This document shows, one piece after another, positions 699 through 15,142 of a stretch of 42,136 nucleotides of DNA (its first letter is position 1; every line of letters starts with the position of its first letter). Below the pieces are notes generated by a model. The model ran no database searches and was not told the DNA's origin. It saw only the letters and a program-made list of their open reading frames with translations. The position numbers were made by a program, and so were the translations under genes. This stretch comes from a virus: IMG/VR virus record IMGVR_UViG_3300033149_007257, positions 1-42,136 of that record; one strand, 5' to 3'.

Positions 699-840
699 CT
701 ATCTGATGCTCTTTCCCAAAGTATGGATGTTTTATCAAGTGTCGCATCTCCCGCTTTGACACAGGAATGCACCCGAAAGGTGGGGCTTTCTTGATCCTCT
801 CGACCAGATCGGCAATCTCATCCTCAGTTAGGTCTTTCAT
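658..840 (-). CDS. Hypothetical 60-aa protein between polymerase and helicase
   Basis: A small acidic-then-basic protein. Its ATG (840-838) shares a base with the polymerase stop codon (TGATG), so it is translated by coupling. It begins MKDLTEDEIADLVERIKK, a predicted amphipathic helix, and ends in an Arg-rich tail (TRRRPHPR) that overlaps the start of the helicase gene. No family is recognised. Its position between polymerase and helicase suggests a replisome accessory role, which is inference only. The longer version of this frame, reaching up to 1236, is a shadow of the polymerase. Confidence 0.6.
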   Translation of the reverse strand: MKDLTEDEIADLVERIKKAPPFGCIPVSKREMRHLIKHPYFGKEHQIDETTRRRPHPRMA

Positions 841-3206
841 CACAGCTCCTCCTCTTCTTCCACATCCACCAGCTCTCCCCAGTTTGTTCCTTTTTTGATC
901 TCCACAGGGACTACCATGTCCCCAAGCACCTTGATCTCCATAGCACGCTTTATAAGCGTCCTGACCTCCCCCTCTTGATCGGGGGAGCACTGCACCAAGA
1001 TTGCATCGTGGTTTTGCAGTAGAATCTCTGCGCCCTCTGGGAGCGAAGCATAGAGGGAGATGATCCCGAGGTTTATGAGATCCGCCGTGCCGCTTTGCGG
1101 ACGGTAGTCTATCGCCTTTCGGATCGTGGCCGCACCACGGGTCCCCCGGAGCGGTCCGAAGAACATCCTCTTCCGCCCGAAGGGTGAGTCGATACTCCTC
1201 GTTCGACGAAGCTCCTCCTTGACCTCTGCGTGCCATGCTTTTATGCGAACCCAGTGCGCATAGTATGAGTCAAGGAGGGCCTTCGCTTCATTTGTGTCCT
1301 GTGGGATGTAAACGTCTGGAGGAGTCACCCCCCGAAGGGCCAGCTTTTCCCCCCTGAGGACTGTCTTCTGGCGCATCGTGATGAGAAAGGACCTTGCTCC
1401 AACACCATAGTTCGCTGCGTGGCCAAGATGCTTTGCAGCCTGGCGAAGGGCAGGTGGGACGTTGTCGTAGGACACCCCCGGAAACACGCTGGTTGCGTTG
1501 ACACGGTGGATGTCTTTTCCCTCATTGAAGGCTGCTTGCATGTGTCGTTCTTTCGAGAGCCATGCAACGAAACGTGCCTCGACCTGTCTGAGGTCTGCGT
1601 AGAGGAAGATTTTTCCCTCATCTGCGATGAACTGGCGGCGCTCAGGGACGGGGACGTTCTGGAGGTCCATCCCAGTGTTCCTCCAGGTTTTGGTCGAGCT
1701 CCACCTCCCTGTCACTGTTCCCCCAACGTTCCAGGAGCATCGGATGCGATTGTCGTCGTCAAGAGCACCTTTGTAGTACGTCCCCAGGAGCTTTCGGAGA
1801 TAGCGAATGAGGACAATCAGGCGTGTTTCTGGGATGTCATGCTTTCGCGCGAGCGTTTCGAGGGCGTCCTCGTTCGTGGTCGGACGGCGCGTTTTGCGAT
1901 GGAGGATCGGAGGGATGCCCCTCTTCTCGTATAGGAAGTTGATCATCTGCGTCGGGCTGTTGGTGTTGATCTCCTCGCCCGCGAGCTCATTGAGCGTGCG
2001 TTGCATGACGAGAAGCTTCTCCTCAAGCTTTCGAGTCTCGTTTGCTCTCCAGCCGAGGTCGCACTTGATCCCGCGCTCTTGCATGTGGATCGCTGGGCCA
2101 AGAACGGGGTGGAGGACACGGAAGTATAGCTTGTCTGTCCCGAACGCACGAAGTTGTCTGTCGAGACGCATCGCGACGCGATAGGCTGCAAGACAGTCGA
2201 GGGCGTTGTATAGACAATATTCCACGCTTCCCTGGTGTTTGAGGTCATAGTAGTATGGGATGTCTGTGTAGATGCTCGTGAGCGTCTCCAGCCCCCTCGG
2301 GATTTCGGGGAAGAGGGCCGTGTGGGCGATCATCGTGTCCATCCAAAAGTTCTCGACCACGATCCCGATGCGATTCAGGATAGGAATGTCAAACACGGCG
2401 TTCTGGACGATCTTTCTCGATTTATTTGCACAGAGCGCAGCGATGGCGTCCCAGATTGCAATTTCCTCGGCAAGTTCATACCTGGGGAGCCCAAGGGTCT
2501 TCTCGTTGGCAACGACGAACGAGATGCTCACAGCGTAGTCGGGAGATGGTGCAAAGCCGAAGTGCGTGATTGCGGGGGAGTGGAGTCTTGTCTCTATGTC
2601 AAGTGCAATATACGGAGCATGGATCGCATGTTCAATCTCCTGGATTGCGTCCTCTGGGGTCACGGGGACGACGATGTTGTCCCAATTGAAGGGTGGGGTG
2701 TAGACGGGGGTCTTTGATTCAACTGCAACGCGCTTCATGTCGAGGATGCAAAGGGGAGACCAGTTCCACTTACGTCGGACGGCGGCAGGATGGACAATTG
2801 GGATCGCCTTCCCGAGGTCCGTGGGGATGATGCTCCCACGCCAGTCTGTGATCCCCTGCTTTCCTGCGACCGCACGAAGAGCCTCCTCCCCAAGGAGCAC
2901 GATGACGTTCGATTCAATTGAGCGGAGCGTTTCCTTGACGCGCTCCCGTCCGGCAAGAAGCTCAGCCGTGGGCTGCTTGTCCTTGTAAAAGCAATCCTCG
3001 AACTTCCCCCGTGGCTTTCGCTGGATTACGTTGTCTATGTAACACTGGTCCCTCATGATCCCTGCTGCTTGAAGCCACCTGTCGAGGAGTCTCCCTGACG
3101 TTCCCACGAAGGGTTTTCCTTGTATAAGTTCCTCGGTGCCTGGGGCCTCTCCTATAATTGCAATCGGTGCGTCCTGCGGTCCGGTTCCCGGAACAATTTT
3201 TGTCAT
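840..3206 (-). CDS. Fusion of uracil-DNA glycosylase, 3'-5' exonuclease and family A DNA polymerase
   Basis: A 788-aa replicative polymerase. Residues 1-160 match family 4-type UDG: GEAPG (19-23), GKPFVG (30-35) and the HPAA motif (139-142). The cysteine pair that normally precedes motif 1 and helps bind 4Fe-4S is missing. Residues 197-350 are a proofreading exonuclease with intact DIET (D203, E205), FD273 and YNALD (Y333, D337). Residues 365-788 are the PolA palm and fingers: TGRW (499-502), motif A YADLRQVEAR (D538), motif B R588/K592/Y600, and motif C HDA (733-735) in place of the usual HDE. The position equivalent to E. coli F762 is H596, which is unusual. Start ATG 3206 follows GGAGAGGAGGAG. 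This is the probable main replicase. The UDG part may remove or sense uracil ahead of synthesis (inference). Confidence 0.93.
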   Translation of the reverse strand: MTKIVPGTGPQDAPIAIIGEAPGTEELIQGKPFVGTSGRLLDRWLQAAGIMRDQCYIDNVIQRKPRGKFEDCFYKDKQPTAELLAGRERVKETLRSIESNVIVLLGEEALRAVAGKQGITDWRGSIIPTDLGKAIPIVHPAAVRRKWNWSPLCILDMKRVAVESKTPVYTPPFNWDNIVVPVTPEDAIQEIEHAIHAPYIALDIETRLHSPAITHFGFAPSPDYAVSISFVVANEKTLGLPRYELAEEIAIWDAIAALCANKSRKIVQNAVFDIPILNRIGIVVENFWMDTMIAHTALFPEIPRGLETLTSIYTDIPYYYDLKHQGSVEYCLYNALDCLAAYRVAMRLDRQLRAFGTDKLYFRVLHPVLGPAIHMQERGIKCDLGWRANETRKLEEKLLVMQRTLNELAGEEINTNSPTQMINFLYEKRGIPPILHRKTRRPTTNEDALETLARKHDIPETRLIVLIRYLRKLLGTYYKGALDDDNRIRCSWNVGGTVTGRWSSTKTWRNTGMDLQNVPVPERRQFIADEGKIFLYADLRQVEARFVAWLSKERHMQAAFNEGKDIHRVNATSVFPGVSYDNVPPALRQAAKHLGHAANYGVGARSFLITMRQKTVLRGEKLALRGVTPPDVYIPQDTNEAKALLDSYYAHWVRIKAWHAEVKEELRRTRSIDSPFGRKRMFFGPLRGTRGAATIRKAIDYRPQSGTADLINLGIISLYASLPEGAEILLQNHDAILVQCSPDQEGEVRTLIKRAMEIKVLGDMVVPVEIKKGTNWGELVDVEEEEEL

Positions 3207-11486: not shown

Positions 11487-11505
11487 TTTCCTCTCCTTTC
11501 CTCAG

Positions 11506-11781
11506 TCACACAGGAAACATACGCAGGAGCGCGCGAAGTTCTTTTGTCACAAGCTCCCCAGTCGCTGTGCGCTCACGAGACGCTGCAACTATCTGCATGA
11601 GCCGCACCACGTCCGGTGTGCAACCCTCCTGGCACAGCAGGAGCTTCGCTCCTCGAGCGACAGCATCAATCCGCGGGCTGTGGATGAGAGTCCCAACCCG
11701 TTGAAGCTCCAGAGCCGCGGACGCAACCCAAGCCTCGTGTGTATAGCTTCCGTCCCGTTCAATCTTCTCTACTGTGCCCAT
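11506..11781 (-). CDS. Hypothetical 91-aa helical protein
   Basis: It starts MGTVEKIERDGSYTHE at ATG 11781, chosen because CAGAGGAGGAGGACG precedes it. The remainder is mainly helical (VARGAKLLLCQEG; DVVRLMQIVAASRER). No family is recognised. It overlaps the zinc-ribbon gene upstream by 23 nt. Confidence 0.75.
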   Translation of the reverse strand: MGTVEKIERDGSYTHEAWVASAALELQRVGTLIHSPRIDAVARGAKLLLCQEGCTPDVVRLMQIVAASRERTATGELVTKELRALLRMFPV

Positions 11782-11977
11782 CGTCCTCCTCCTCTGTTGA
11801 AATGAGCCTTTGTCCACGACCTACGCCCAAGCCGATGCCGTAGACCTTGTAGCACTCTTCGCAGAGGAATGCCCAAGGTCCAAGCCTCGTCTTTGCATCG
11901 TAAACGCACTTCCTTTTCCCACACACGTCGCACATCGGCAGGGGACCGACGAACCTGGCCTCTGTTCCGTTTTTCAT
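11759..11977 (-). CDS. Small zinc-ribbon protein
   Basis: 72 aa with two CxxC knuckles, C16/C19 (MCDVCGKRK) and C39/C42 (LCEECYKVYG), typical of a zinc ribbon, and a short acidic tail. ATG 11977 overlaps the upstream stop (ATGA) and has AAGGA upstream. Small zinc ribbons in early phage operons often bind nucleic acid or host transcription proteins; that role is inference here. Confidence 0.75.
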   Translation of the reverse strand: MKNGTEARFVGPLPMCDVCGKRKCVYDAKTRLGPWAFLCEECYKVYGIGLGVGRGQRLISTEEEDDGHSRED

Positions 11978-12360
11978 TGCACGATCCTTCCATTCAAAAA
12001 GTCAACCCTGACGGGACCTACACAGTCGAAGTTGTCGAACTCGTCTGCCACCAGGAACGTGTGCTCTTTAGGCTTCTTGACAAACCTCGAGAGCATCTTC
12101 AACGTCCATCTCAGGTCCCGCCATGTATGCGTGCTTCTGCCGTGACCGAACTCTATGCGCACGCCGTCTTGGGAAAAGGTCGTGTTCTCGGAAAGATACC
12201 ACCATGCGCACCGGAGGTTGGGGTCGAGGCGCACGTCCCCGCAGTTCTCCTTGTTCACCTCCTTCTCAGCCTCCTCGCACAGCTCCTGGAGACCCTTTGC
12301 GTCAATCTCGTCGGGAGCGAAGTCCACAGTGTACTTGTGCAGCTCTACACAGTTACTCAT
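11974..12360 (-). CDS. Hypothetical 128-aa protein
   Basis: It begins MSNCVELHKYTVDF at ATG 12360, with GAAGGAGGACGAGAGG as ribosome site; the extension to 12453 is a shadow of the upstream gene. It contains an acidic helix (LQELCEEAEKEVNKEN) and several tryptophans. No domain is recognised. It overlaps the 55-aa gene upstream by eight bases. Confidence 0.75.
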   Translation of the reverse strand: MSNCVELHKYTVDFAPDEIDAKGLQELCEEAEKEVNKENCGDVRLDPNLRCAWWYLSENTTFSQDGVRIEFGHGRSTHTWRDLRWTLKMLSRFVKKPKEHTFLVADEFDNFDCVGPVRVDFLNGRIVQ

Positions 12361-12520
12361 CCTCTCGTCCTCCTTCTTTCTCCAGCGACGCCTCAAGCGC
12401 TCGGATCGTCGCCCGAAGCTCCTGCTGTCGCTCGTCGTCCTCGGGAATGCCACCCAGCGCCCGATATCCGTACTCGTTCTGCAACAAGCGTACTTTGCGG
12501 AACAGCTCTTCCCTGTTCAC
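12353..12520 (-). CDS. Hypothetical 55-aa protein with GTG start
   Basis: GTG 12520 is preceded by GCGAGGAGGACGTCAGA, a strong site. The product starts MNREELFRKVRLLQNEYG and is almost entirely charged helix (RQQELRATIRALEASLEKE), so it is probably a coiled coil. Its start overlaps the preceding stop as GTGA and its stop overlaps the next ATG. Codon spacing and overlaps on both sides support a real gene. Confidence 0.65.
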   Translation of the reverse strand: MNREELFRKVRLLQNEYGYRALGGIPEDDERQQELRATIRALEASLEKEGGREDE

Positions 12521-12921
12521 TCTGACGTCCTCCTCGCAAGCGCCACATACGCCTGCGCAACACCCTGGAGCACCTGGTCCGCGCCTGGAGAGTCCAGTCC
12601 CCTCAACAAAAGTGCCGCCCCAGAGGTGCTCTCCTCATAGGCGACCCTGTTTTCAACATCTGGACGACTTATCCACCACAACATGGCATCCTGCGCCTCG
12701 GACGATGGGATGTCCTTGCAAATCGTCCTCCACGCAACAGCCATGTCGAGACAATGCTCGAGCTGCGACAAGAGCACTTGCCGAGCACGATGTTCCGAGA
12801 CCTTTACCCTTCCGTGTCTCATCCTCCTGTCCTCCTCAAGCTCAAGACGACAGAAATCGCAAAGCTCCGGCCCTGATGCCGTCATCTCACCGCAACGTGG
12901 GCACGTGTGTTTGCCCCTCAT
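12517..12921 (-). CDS. Zinc-ribbon protein, 134 aa
   Basis: An N-terminal zinc ribbon, C7/C10 (CPRCGE) and C21/C24 (CDFC), precedes a helical region rich in Leu and Ala (VLLSQLEHCLDMAVAWR, QVLQGVAQAYVALARR). ATG 12921 follows GTGAGGAGGACG. No exact family is recognised. The zinc ribbon suggests nucleic-acid or protein binding. It overlaps the first gene of the operon by 35 nt. Confidence 0.75.
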   Translation of the reverse strand: MRGKHTCPRCGEMTASGPELCDFCRLELEEDRRMRHGRVKVSEHRARQVLLSQLEHCLDMAVAWRTICKDIPSSEAQDAMLWWISRPDVENRVAYEESTSGAALLLRGLDSPGADQVLQGVAQAYVALARRTSE

Positions 12922-13225
12922 CGTCCTCCTCACATTGTTCTAAACCCAAACGATGTCCTTTCAGTGCCTCCTTGACGATCTTGCTCCAGCACTGCAAGAA
13001 CTGTCCTCCTGACGTGAACATCGTGACCATCCCTGCGAGCCTTTGTCCATCCTCGTCCACGAGCATGTCCGCAGACCCAAGGACGATCTCTCCCACCCTG
13101 ATCGCAATGGGGAGACGTCCCTGGAACCACACCTCCGCCCGTCCGCGCTGAGAGGTCAGGACGCTTCTCGTCCGCCCTGCTCCCCACCGCGAAAAGTCAA
13201 CCTGCGTCCCGTCGCTCCCGCTCAT
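12887..13225 (-). CDS. First gene of the leftward operon, hypothetical 112 aa
   Basis: ATG 13225 follows GTGACAGGAGGACAGGAGG, a double ribosome site. The product is beta-rich early (AEVWFQGRLPIAIRVGEIVL; DMLVDEDGQRLAGMV) and ends in an acidic tail. No family is recognised. As the first cistron after the promoter and the attenuator-like leader it is probably the earliest-made phage protein. Confidence 0.75.
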   Translation of the reverse strand: MSGSDGTQVDFSRWGAGRTRSVLTSQRGRAEVWFQGRLPIAIRVGEIVLGSADMLVDEDGQRLAGMVTMFTSGGQFLQCWSKIVKEALKGHRLGLEQCEEDDEGQTHVPTLR

Positions 13226-13240
13226 CCTCCTGTCCTCCTG

Positions 13241-13312
13241 TCACGAAAAAATGGACGACAAGCGAGTGGGAACCACTGCGACGGCAATGGAGGTTTTTCG
13301 CCTGTCGTCCAT
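13241..13312 (-). CDS. Possible 23-aa leader peptide
   Basis: An ATG at 13312 opens a 23-codon frame (starting MDDRRKTSIAVAVV) that ends at TGA 13241, 15 bases before the first operon gene. It spans the hairpin arms and T-run of the leader, the arrangement seen in translation-controlled attenuators. The ribosome site is weak (AAGAGC), so coding is uncertain. Confidence 0.3.
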   Translation of the reverse strand: MDDRRKTSIAVAVVPTRLSSIFS

Positions 13313-13340
13313 GAGGTTGCTCTTGGTGCAGTGGTTCCCA
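13246..13340 (-). promoter_or_regulatory. Attenuator-like leader with interleaved inverted repeats
   Basis: In RNA order: TGGGAACCACTGC (13340-13328), ATGGACGACAGGCGA (13312-13298), then the perfect 13-nt complement of the first (13279-13267), then a 15-nt complement of the second with one mismatch (13265-13251) followed by UUUUU. The second pair ending in the U-run resembles an intrinsic terminator. The first pair interleaves with it, so the two helices form a pseudoknot or compete as terminator and antiterminator. It lies wholly within the transcribed leader. Confidence 0.65.
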
Positions 13341-13354
13341 TTGTTCTACCTGAC

Positions 13355-13383
13355 ATTATAACGCGCGACGGGGAAATTGTCAA
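13355..13383 (-). promoter_or_regulatory. Perfect sigma70 promoter of the leftward operon
   Basis: On the minus strand TTGACA (13383-13378), a 17-bp spacer and TATAAT (13360-13355) match the bacterial housekeeping consensus exactly. Transcription should begin near 13347, giving a leader of about 120 nt before ATG 13225. Such strength fits an immediate-early promoter served by host RNA polymerase. Confidence 0.88.
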
Positions 13384-13606
13384 GCGAATTGGCGTAACTT
13401 GGAGGGGCTTGTTGTAAGTTATTGGTGAATAAGGCTTTAGGGCAAGGGGGAAAAACTTAGGGCAAGGGCCGGAATGCGCGTTAAGGGCGTTTCGGCGCTG
13501 TTGGCCTAACTCCTTGCGGAATAAGGCTTTAGGAAAAGCGTTGTGCAAATGCAACATTGCCCTAAGTCTTTGCGGAATAAGGCTTTACGTGTTGCAACAA
13601 GCGCCC

Positions 13607-13635
13607 TTTATTGCGAAAACTTGACAACCTGTCAA
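13607..13635 (-). promoter_or_regulatory. Possible second leftward promoter inside the iteron array
   Basis: On the minus strand TTGACA (13635-13630), a 17-bp spacer and AATAAA (13612-13607) form a moderate promoter between iterons 3 and 4. TTGACA is also part of a TTGACA/TGTCAA inverted repeat. The -10 box is weak. Confidence 0.3.
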
Positions 13636-13930
13636 ATTATCATGCCTTTTTGCCTTCTCCTAACTCCTTGCTGTGCAATACGATAGGACGACGATAATTC
13701 TTATGCCATTGGCATTTTCCCTAACTCCTTTGCCCGCAAGGACTTACGCCAATGTCCGGTATCCCAAAACAGACTTCAACACCCGCCCTTGCCCTAAACC
13801 CTTACACTGCAAACACTTAGGACGGCATTTCAACGACCCCAGTTTGCGCTTTTGCCCTAACCCCTTATTCTGCAAACACTTAGGACGACAGCCCGAGAGT
13901 GCTGCAAAAGGGCGCGTCCATGTCCTATAC

Positions 13931-13975
13931 GACATATAGTATGCATATATATATTTAAGTCTATATATAGTATAG
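13931..13975. other. AT-rich block, candidate DNA-unwinding element
   Basis: About 45 bases made of ATATA runs and CTATATATAG-type near-palindromes, standing out in an otherwise GC-balanced genome. Seven iterons lie to its left and two to its right, the layout of an iteron-type replication origin. Function is inferred from composition and context. Confidence 0.6.
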
Positions 13976-13976
13976 T

Positions 13977-13993
13977 CCTGCCAAAGTGGCAGG
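13977..13993. promoter_or_regulatory. Operator-like palindrome, copy 1
   Basis: CCTGCCAAAGTGGCAGG is a perfect 7-bp palindrome around AAG, directly beside the AT-rich block. Its 15-bp core recurs inverted at 14354-14368, so it looks like a protein-binding site rather than a terminator (no T-run). Confidence 0.55.
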
Positions 13994-14276
13994 AGAATTA
14001 AGGTGATTGTGCTGCATTTTTCAACGACCTGTTGAAGTGTCGAGATTCCACAACACTATGTCGGGGGGGAGCTGATCTTCATGTCGAAGAAATTGGCATA
14101 AGTGTTTGCAGTGTAAGGAGTTAGGGCAGAATGGGGGCGCTTCACGATGTTGAACTCAAAAAGGGCATTCCCTAAGTCGTTGCATAGAAAGGCTTTAGGA
14201 AAAGCCTACCATTCCGGTAGGGTTTCAAAAATCGTTGAAATTGTTTCAGCGTCGAGAGGCTTTCCGTGCACACGTT

Positions 14277-14296
14277 CACTCCCAAATTGGGGAGTG
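14277..14296. promoter_or_regulatory. Hairpin-forming inverted repeat
   Basis: CACTCCC and GGGAGTG arms (7 bp) enclose AAATTG. On the plus strand it is followed by GGTGTTTTGG, giving at best a weak terminator for transcripts leaving the iteron region. Confidence 0.35.
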
Positions 14297-14353
14297 GGTG
14301 TTTTGGAGGACAAGGGGCGGATCTGCAGCAGACGGGCCTCTCCCTCGCAAAAG

Positions 14354-14368
14354 TGCCACTTTGGCAGG
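14354..14368. promoter_or_regulatory. Operator-like palindrome, copy 2
   Basis: TGCCACTTTGGCAGG is the reverse complement of 13977-13991. The two copies, 360 bp apart, flank the last two iterons. Confidence 0.5.
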
Positions 14369-14425
14369 AGGGTGGACTACATCGTTCTGAACGAGAACGA
14401 AGTGAGACCGCTTTTTGGATCTGGA

Positions 14426-14447
14426 CGTGTTGAGAAATCTCAACACG
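14426..14447. promoter_or_regulatory. 22-bp perfect palindrome, probable operator
   Basis: CGTGTTGAGA is followed by AA and then its exact reverse complement TCTCAACACG. The 10-bp arms with a 2-bp centre are typical of a dimeric repressor site. No promoter box is obvious beside it and no T-run follows. Confidence 0.5.
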
Positions 14448-14558
14448 CGAGCAGTGCGCTCAAAATGAAACACGGCGGTCGGTGGATTTTGCCTGTGCGT
14501 CGTGCCCTGCGCGTGCGTGCGCTGTGCGTCGTGGATGCTCTCGCACATGCTCCAAAAG

Positions 14559-14649: not shown

Positions 14650-15036
14650 TCAATCGTCAGGAATTGCCTCCTTTAGCTGTGCCTTCAGAACCTCGATTGG
14701 GATGCCCGTATCCGCTGAAAGCTTCTCGAGCCTCTTCAGCGTCTGCTCGGCGGCCTTTGCGATCTTCTCTTCCGGCGTCGCAGCATAACGTTTGTCGTAT
14801 CCGCACGTCATGCGCGTTTTCCGGTTCTCAAGAAGCGAACGTCCGTTGACGAAGGAGTTTGCTTCTTCGTCGCTACGGGTTCGGAATATCCATTCTCCAT
14901 CCCTGTGCTCAACGTCAATCGAAAACTTGAATGGGATGTCGTGTGATATTCCGTCGACCGATTGGTCCCTACTGATGTGCGTCGCGCCATGGTAGACGTT
15001 TCCGTCGATTCGTTCAAGGTGCTTATACTTTGCCAT
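14650..15036 (-). CDS. Hypothetical 128-aa protein, stand-alone paralogue of gene 10830-11222
   Basis: It starts MAKYKHLERIDGNVYHG; ATG 15036 follows ACGGAGAACGGTTCC. It has a beta-rich N-terminal half and a charged C-terminal helix (TPEEKIAKAAEQTLKRLEKL). It shares the KHxxRxxDGxY start, the xxDGxxHxxxxF strand and the PEEK helix with the 130-aa operon gene, so the two are diverged duplicates. It is the only gene in the control region, with its own candidate promoter (15209-15236) and strong terminator (14559-14585). That suggests separate timing and possibly a regulator of, or binder to, the origin region (inference). Confidence 0.8.
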   Translation of the reverse strand: MAKYKHLERIDGNVYHGATHISRDQSVDGISHDIPFKFSIDVEHRDGEWIFRTRSDEEANSFVNGRSLLENRKTRMTCGYDKRYAATPEEKIAKAAEQTLKRLEKLSADTGIPIEVLKAQLKEAIPDD

Positions 15037-15142
15037 GGAACCGTTCTCCGTTCTTTGCGCGCCCTTGATCGCATATTCAATTGTCAATGAGCATGAACAT
15101 CATCCCTACATATAGCAATTCCCATGCCAAGCCACAAAACGC

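Follow-up and report, generated by a model that had tools for sequence, protein, structure and literature searches.

What is the role of the structured leader that lies between the promoter and the first gene of the early operon of this virus, and could it act as a switch for the genes behind it? The window analysed was the complete virus record (42,136 bases), in which gene annotation of the Pfam/PHROGs type placed a replication operon on the minus strand and the terminase on the plus strand. The replication operon encodes a DNA polymerase A with a UDG-like domain, a ParB/methyltransferase fusion, a Sak4-like ATPase and a PD-(D/E)XK nuclease; the remaining plus-strand genes beyond the terminase were taken to be late genes, the labels 'early' and 'late' being assigned from presumed timing, as suggested by gene functions only. 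The uracil-DNA-glycosylase-like domain is found at the N-terminus of DNA polymerase A (840-3206, minus strand). The nearest named relative, the spring-water phage MW202554, is remote (32% identity in the terminase, 28-29% in the DNA polymerase). The terminase of MW202554.1 (locus L003, 32005-34542) is annotated as two CDS with an additional ORF between them; we take the tail of the first CDS, as recognised in the alignment, to resemble the start of an intein.

Gene 1, the first gene of the minus-strand early operon (12887-13225, 112 aa), matches no family in Pfam or PHROGs. It is preceded by the ribosome-binding site AGGAGGACAGGAGG (13226-13239, minus strand), for which an anti-Shine-Dalgarno (anti-SD) energy of -10.3 kcal/mol was calculated. 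A strong purine ribosome site, GGAGGACRA/GGAGGACAGGAGG, is common to the early genes (e.g. at 13239-13226, 12835-12823, 12373-12361 and 11792-11782), and that of gene 1 is found again as a 19-nt copy at 12836-12818. Apart from the early operon, there is a possible small minus-strand gene at 14650-15087, with no match in Pfam or PHROGs, at the 3′ side of which lies a clear intrinsic terminator (14589-14560, minus strand; 13-bp stem and T-run).

The promoter, the arms of the leader and the U-run can all be seen in the sequence itself, much as a first-pass annotation had described them. The early promoter (TTGACA-17-TATAAT, 13383-13355, minus strand) stands just before the arms and matches the consensus at 12 of 12 positions; a scan of both strands found it to be the sole sigma-70 consensus site in the window with zero mismatches (four sites had two or fewer). 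Transcription would be expected to start at about 13349-13347. The minus-strand transcript then carries, in this order, arm A (UGGGAACCACUGC, 13340-13328), close to the 5′-end, arm B (AUGGACGACAGGCGA, 13312-13298), arm A′ (GCAGUGGUUCCCA, 13279-13267) and arm B′ (UCGCUUGUCGUCCAU, 13265-13251), followed by UUUUUU. Two further segments are of relevance, namely the A-B spacer (13313-13327) and element C (CCAUUGCCGUC, 13280-13290). The two interleaved inverted repeats reported earlier, one a perfect 13 bp and the other 15 bp with a single mismatch, were thus recovered (A/A′, 13 nt, 100% as DNA; B/B′, 15 nt, 93% as DNA). When every pair was checked, the odd B/B′ pair proved to be G·U in the minus-strand RNA, as opposed to A·C on the plus strand, so that all 15 B:B′ positions can pair in the minus-strand transcript. 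A single base separates A′ from B′. The last arm does run into a U-run, as had been noted; it is located 3′ of the B:B′ stem (TTTTTT at 13250-13245, minus strand) and, with the base after it, would be the expected release point.

Nowhere else in the window do both stems of an interleaved pair reach 13 bp, and in 1098 first-order Markov-shuffled windows such a pair, with at least 13 bp in each stem, was counted only twice, both strands being scored and neither a T-run nor a promoter being required. The minus-strand leader folded with a z-score of -4.69, none of 200 shuffles being equally stable, while the plus strand reached -2.74 (3 of 200 shuffles). The arrangement of the leader is real and non-random.

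Constrained folding, performed with a program unable to predict pseudoknots, yielded two mutually exclusive nested structures. In the predicted read-through fold, the 13-bp A:A′ stem, of which arm A forms the 5′ strand, closes a junction of two hairpins, CCA-GAG/CUC-UGG and GAC-GGCGA/UUGCC-GUC; the A-B spacer and the first bases of B together make up a small hairpin, B being paired with this spacer and with C, and the two small hairpins together occupy parts of both B halves. In the predicted terminator fold, the 15-bp B:B′ stem (B the 5′ strand and B′ the 3′ strand) encloses an inner pairing of C with the 5′ half of A′ (CCAUUGC/GCAGUGG), and the U-run directly follows the outer stem. This terminator hairpin, in which a 7-by-7 internal loop sits on top of the 15-bp stem, is not compact. 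C, the partner of B in the read-through fold and of A′ in the terminator fold, is thus an element shared by both. With the 3′-end set at the U-run, the computed energies were -37.5 kcal/mol for the read-through fold and -40.5 kcal/mol for the terminator fold, and the gap between the two remained within 1.0-4.3 kcal/mol across 20 to 65°C. Four parameter sets disagreed as to the favoured fold (Turner 2004 and Langdon 2018, terminator; Andronescu 2007 and Turner 1999, read-through); as calculated, the energy difference between the two folds does not exceed the error of the method.

The spacers between the arms were then shuffled 1500 times each. For the B-A′ spacer (13297-13280), which holds C, 4.3% of the shuffles reached the energy of the read-through fold and 1.7% that of the terminator fold, while none reached both. 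For the A-B spacer, 4.0% matched the read-through fold and 61.9% the terminator fold; shuffling it therefore weakens the former and not the latter. These spacer shuffles, obtained from one sequence, provide the best evidence that the leader may be a two-state RNA on which selection has acted.

The order in which the arms are transcribed would also matter. At the five transcript lengths tested between 3′-ends 13270 and 13254, i.e. before B′ is complete, the fold containing A:A′ had a predicted probability of 0.97-0.99; once B′ was complete (3′-ends 13251-13245), the prediction flipped to the B:B′ fold, with a probability of 0.94-0.95. The computed barrier for direct refolding was high, ∼27 kcal/mol, a value that is an upper bound and takes no account of pseudoknots or pseudoknotted branch migration. 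With such a barrier, the fold formed first should persist. Since A:A′ can form before B′ exists, we infer that read-through would be the default, and that termination would need arm A to be occupied.

These predictions are best explained by the reading that the leader is a cis-acting transcription attenuator heading the phage early operon, to which we assign a probability of about 0.55. The leader sits between the promoter and the first gene, and its predicted folds are mutually exclusive, one being a hairpin followed by a U-run. In such an attenuator, the nascent RNA would first pair A with A′; as this stem and its two inner hairpins hide both halves of B, the polymerase would go on to transcribe the replication genes. 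If the first 20-25 bases were bound by a ligand, be it a protein, an antisense RNA or something else, arm A would be blocked from pairing, B:B′ and C:A′ would pair instead, and the 15-bp hairpin with its six U residues would form, ending transcription near 13245. The best candidate for the factor behind the flip would be a product of an early gene that turns off the operon encoding it.

Attenuators governed by a protein include that of rplJL as well as the trp/TRAP and pyr/PyrR systems. The leader analysed here would in its working be most like these. The Bacillus subtilis rplJL attenuator, as outlined in PMC4538822, has three structures (anti-antiterminator, antiterminator and terminator); the likeness to this outline lies in the exclusive leader structures upstream of an operon, one of them an intrinsic terminator, and in that a factor acting on the upstream structure would promote termination. 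The outline in PMC4538822 differs from the present case in that here two complete folds share five segments; moreover, the operon here is a phage early operon and not a host ribosomal one.

A rival reading is an RNA circuit that acts on itself, as in P4 CI or Gifsy-1 IsrK: a stable, terminated leader RNA of ∼100 nt would pair in trans with nascent or read-through copies, altering either termination or the translation of gene 1. The layout agrees well with that given for IsrK of Gifsy-1 in PMC4825925, where a strong phage promoter, a short terminated RNA, a differently folded read-through mRNA with a translationally closed start and a small ORF ahead of the first gene are described; the P4 SeqA/CI RNA is described there as having a similar layout. 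In keeping with such a circuit, the AUG of gene 1 had a mean unpaired probability of 0.01 in the read-through RNA, in which B′ is predicted to cover the start, compared to 0.67 in the terminator fold. This burial was not specific, however: when the leader was joined in silico to 16 other early starts, AUG accessibility was 0.05 or less in four of them (12921, 11781, 11486 and 6862), and for 5 of these 16 starts the preference for the read-through fold exceeded that seen with gene 1 itself. The idea of a specific translational lock on gene 1 was rejected on the outcome of this swap control. Binding of B′ to the ribosome site of gene 1 was equalled by 7.6% of 3000 shuffles. B′ bound 16 downstream early ribosome sites somewhat better than did shuffled versions of it (2.75% of 400 were as good), which would favour action in trans; a general anti-Shine-Dalgarno role of B′ on the early genes was discarded, the effect being mostly one of composition. 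B′ may still bury the start of gene 1 in the cell, as the folding model suggests, without any special matching. When the short RNA was co-folded with the read-through mRNA (pseudoknots disallowed), the start region stayed closed, so that action in trans, which together with a specific start-site lock defines IsrK and P4 CI, was not predicted by co-folding. The gene activated by IsrK encodes an anti-repressor and lies in a prophage (PMC4825925), whereas gene 1 here is the first of a replication operon and matched no family. Nor was there any Rfam match at the cut-offs. A self-acting circuit is regarded as unlikely. The first-pass annotation had further suggested that a free CCTCC near 13291 might mask ribosome sites; the motif exists (13293-13289, minus strand), and the masking found no backing, the motif being part of a loop in one of the folds and, in the second, pairing in part with A′.

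The leader might otherwise not switch at all and, as a static structure at the 5′-end or as a partial terminator of constitutive activity, simply set early expression or protect the 5′-end of the mRNA. The strong 5′-terminal fold and the U-run would suffice for this. Against this, a simple hairpin would have been enough for such a role, and the B-A′ spacer suits both folds in a way matched by none of its 1500 shuffles; a static element is regarded as unlikely.

The position of the leader immediately 3′ of the early promoter recalls that of HK022 putL, and would suit an antitermination element of the put kind, acting on the polymerase from the nascent RNA and shielding the long early operon from terminators. 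Both are structured RNAs with which an early phage transcript begins. According to PMC9378689, the put RNA is ∼70 nt long and consists of two stem-loops that suppress termination, whereas the present arms are interleaved and lead into a U-run, which is suited to termination; neither of the predicted folds has the put form. An element of this kind is improbable.

In a trp-type leader-peptide attenuator, alternative hairpins decide between read-through and termination, and here the position of a ribosome on a leader ORF would have to select the fold. Two ORFs traverse the arms. The first, of 23 codons (13312-13241, minus strand), was correctly reported as crossing the structure and ending 15 bases before the first gene, the ATG of which is at 13225; the second, of 39 codons (13222-13341, minus strand), has a stop that overlaps the start of gene 1 (ATGA). 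Their anti-SD energies were -2.1 and +0.2 kcal/mol, respectively, to be compared with -6.3 to -12.6 kcal/mol for 17 assumed early gene starts and a mean of -4.5 kcal/mol for 500 random positions. Since neither ORF has a Shine-Dalgarno sequence, a translated leader peptide is unlikely to exert control, and the 23-codon ORF is probably not translated. The start of the 39-codon ORF is only ∼6-8 nt from the 5′-end of the RNA, its product has no match in PHROGs, and neither translation contains a run of control codons (no residue occurs more than twice consecutively). The likeness to trp-type attenuators ends at the alternative hairpins, a translated leader peptide being unsupported here, and this explanation is very improbable.

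Upstream of the early promoter lies an array of imperfect dyad repeats (13413-14205) with a consensus like CCTAAnTCCTTn7AAGGnnTTAGG; it comprises two families, one with seven copies of 35 nt and the other with three of 44 nt, that share positions, and has the appearance of an origin or of an operator with multiple sites. That this array directly adjoins the leader is the reason to consider that the arms might work as DNA, as a protein-binding or replication site. By eye, the arms are unlike the repeats of the array, and the strand-specific G·U pair, the U-run and the spacing from the promoter all point to RNA, leaving a DNA site with little likelihood. The first-pass annotation had offered an attenuator or a pseudoknot switch; the attenuator half of that proposal is supported, there being two predicted near-equal exclusive folds, one ending in a U-run, directly behind the early promoter, while a ligand-sensing pseudoknot with A:A′ and B:B′ formed simultaneously, although the arms permit it on paper, can be practically set aside, since two nested folds sharing C explain the sequence without one and, with a single base between A′ and B′, its loops would have to span long helices.

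Relatives of the leader were sought in several collections, which may omit records very near the query. A blastn search with positions 11500-14500 found no match among phages; the leader alone gave one 22-base chance match (E 4) among phages and none among plasmids. In IMG/VR, gene 1 gave 10 pattern matches, none of which was confirmed; single queries with the exonuclease, the terminase and the DNA polymerase gave none each, and neither did the arm pattern. A comparison set of 62 loci was formed by 57 distant ones (taken with a two-sequence terminase alignment; best-segment identity 23-38%) and five GenBank phage regions. None of these distant loci contained an interleaved pair with both stems of at least 13 bp, and none had one running directly into a T-run; two single-sequence covariance models run over them returned nothing convincing (R1, best relative match E 3.2; R2, none). 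Many of the 62 loci are short and may not hold an early leader, and absence from them therefore says little. Rfam, which includes models for isrK and C4, gave no match at the gathering score in the whole window; within 13180-13370, at E values up to 5, only one chance-level match was seen (SpF19, on the other strand; E 3.4, 15.6 bits against a cut-off of 60). Searching host genomes with one arm pattern returned two stretches, with ∼1 estimated to be expected by chance. Both are intergenic TGGACGACATGGAC-like repeats, i.e. terminator-like inverted repeats (L065, 7680-7752; L066, 3556-3645), from metagenome bins (Sumerlaeota and Parachlamydiales); with weak model scores (up to 27 bits) and a number close to that due to chance, they were treated as unrelated. 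The open-access literature yielded no description of this leader, or of a phage early operon arranged in this way. The proposed attenuator would be of a kind already known, its design being unusually clear; this instance is new as far as the searches went.

Few early operons of lytic phages are known to be gated by leader RNA folding alone, although a strictly lytic life is not implied for this virus. If the terminated leader of ∼100 nt were itself the regulator, its exposed arm A pairing with A′ in the nascent transcript made next and tipping it towards termination, which we regard as quite unlikely, it would constitute an RNA-only timer for the self-inflicted shut-off of the early operon, in a phage related to neither P4 nor Gifsy-1. 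Should the attenuator reading be true, the leader would be a compact two-state switch with segments shared by both folds, which would allow the phage to turn down its replication operon once the first rounds of transcription were over; it would also offer a clean natural case for studies of co-transcriptional folding, because its fold energies are nearly equal and the predicted barrier between them is high.
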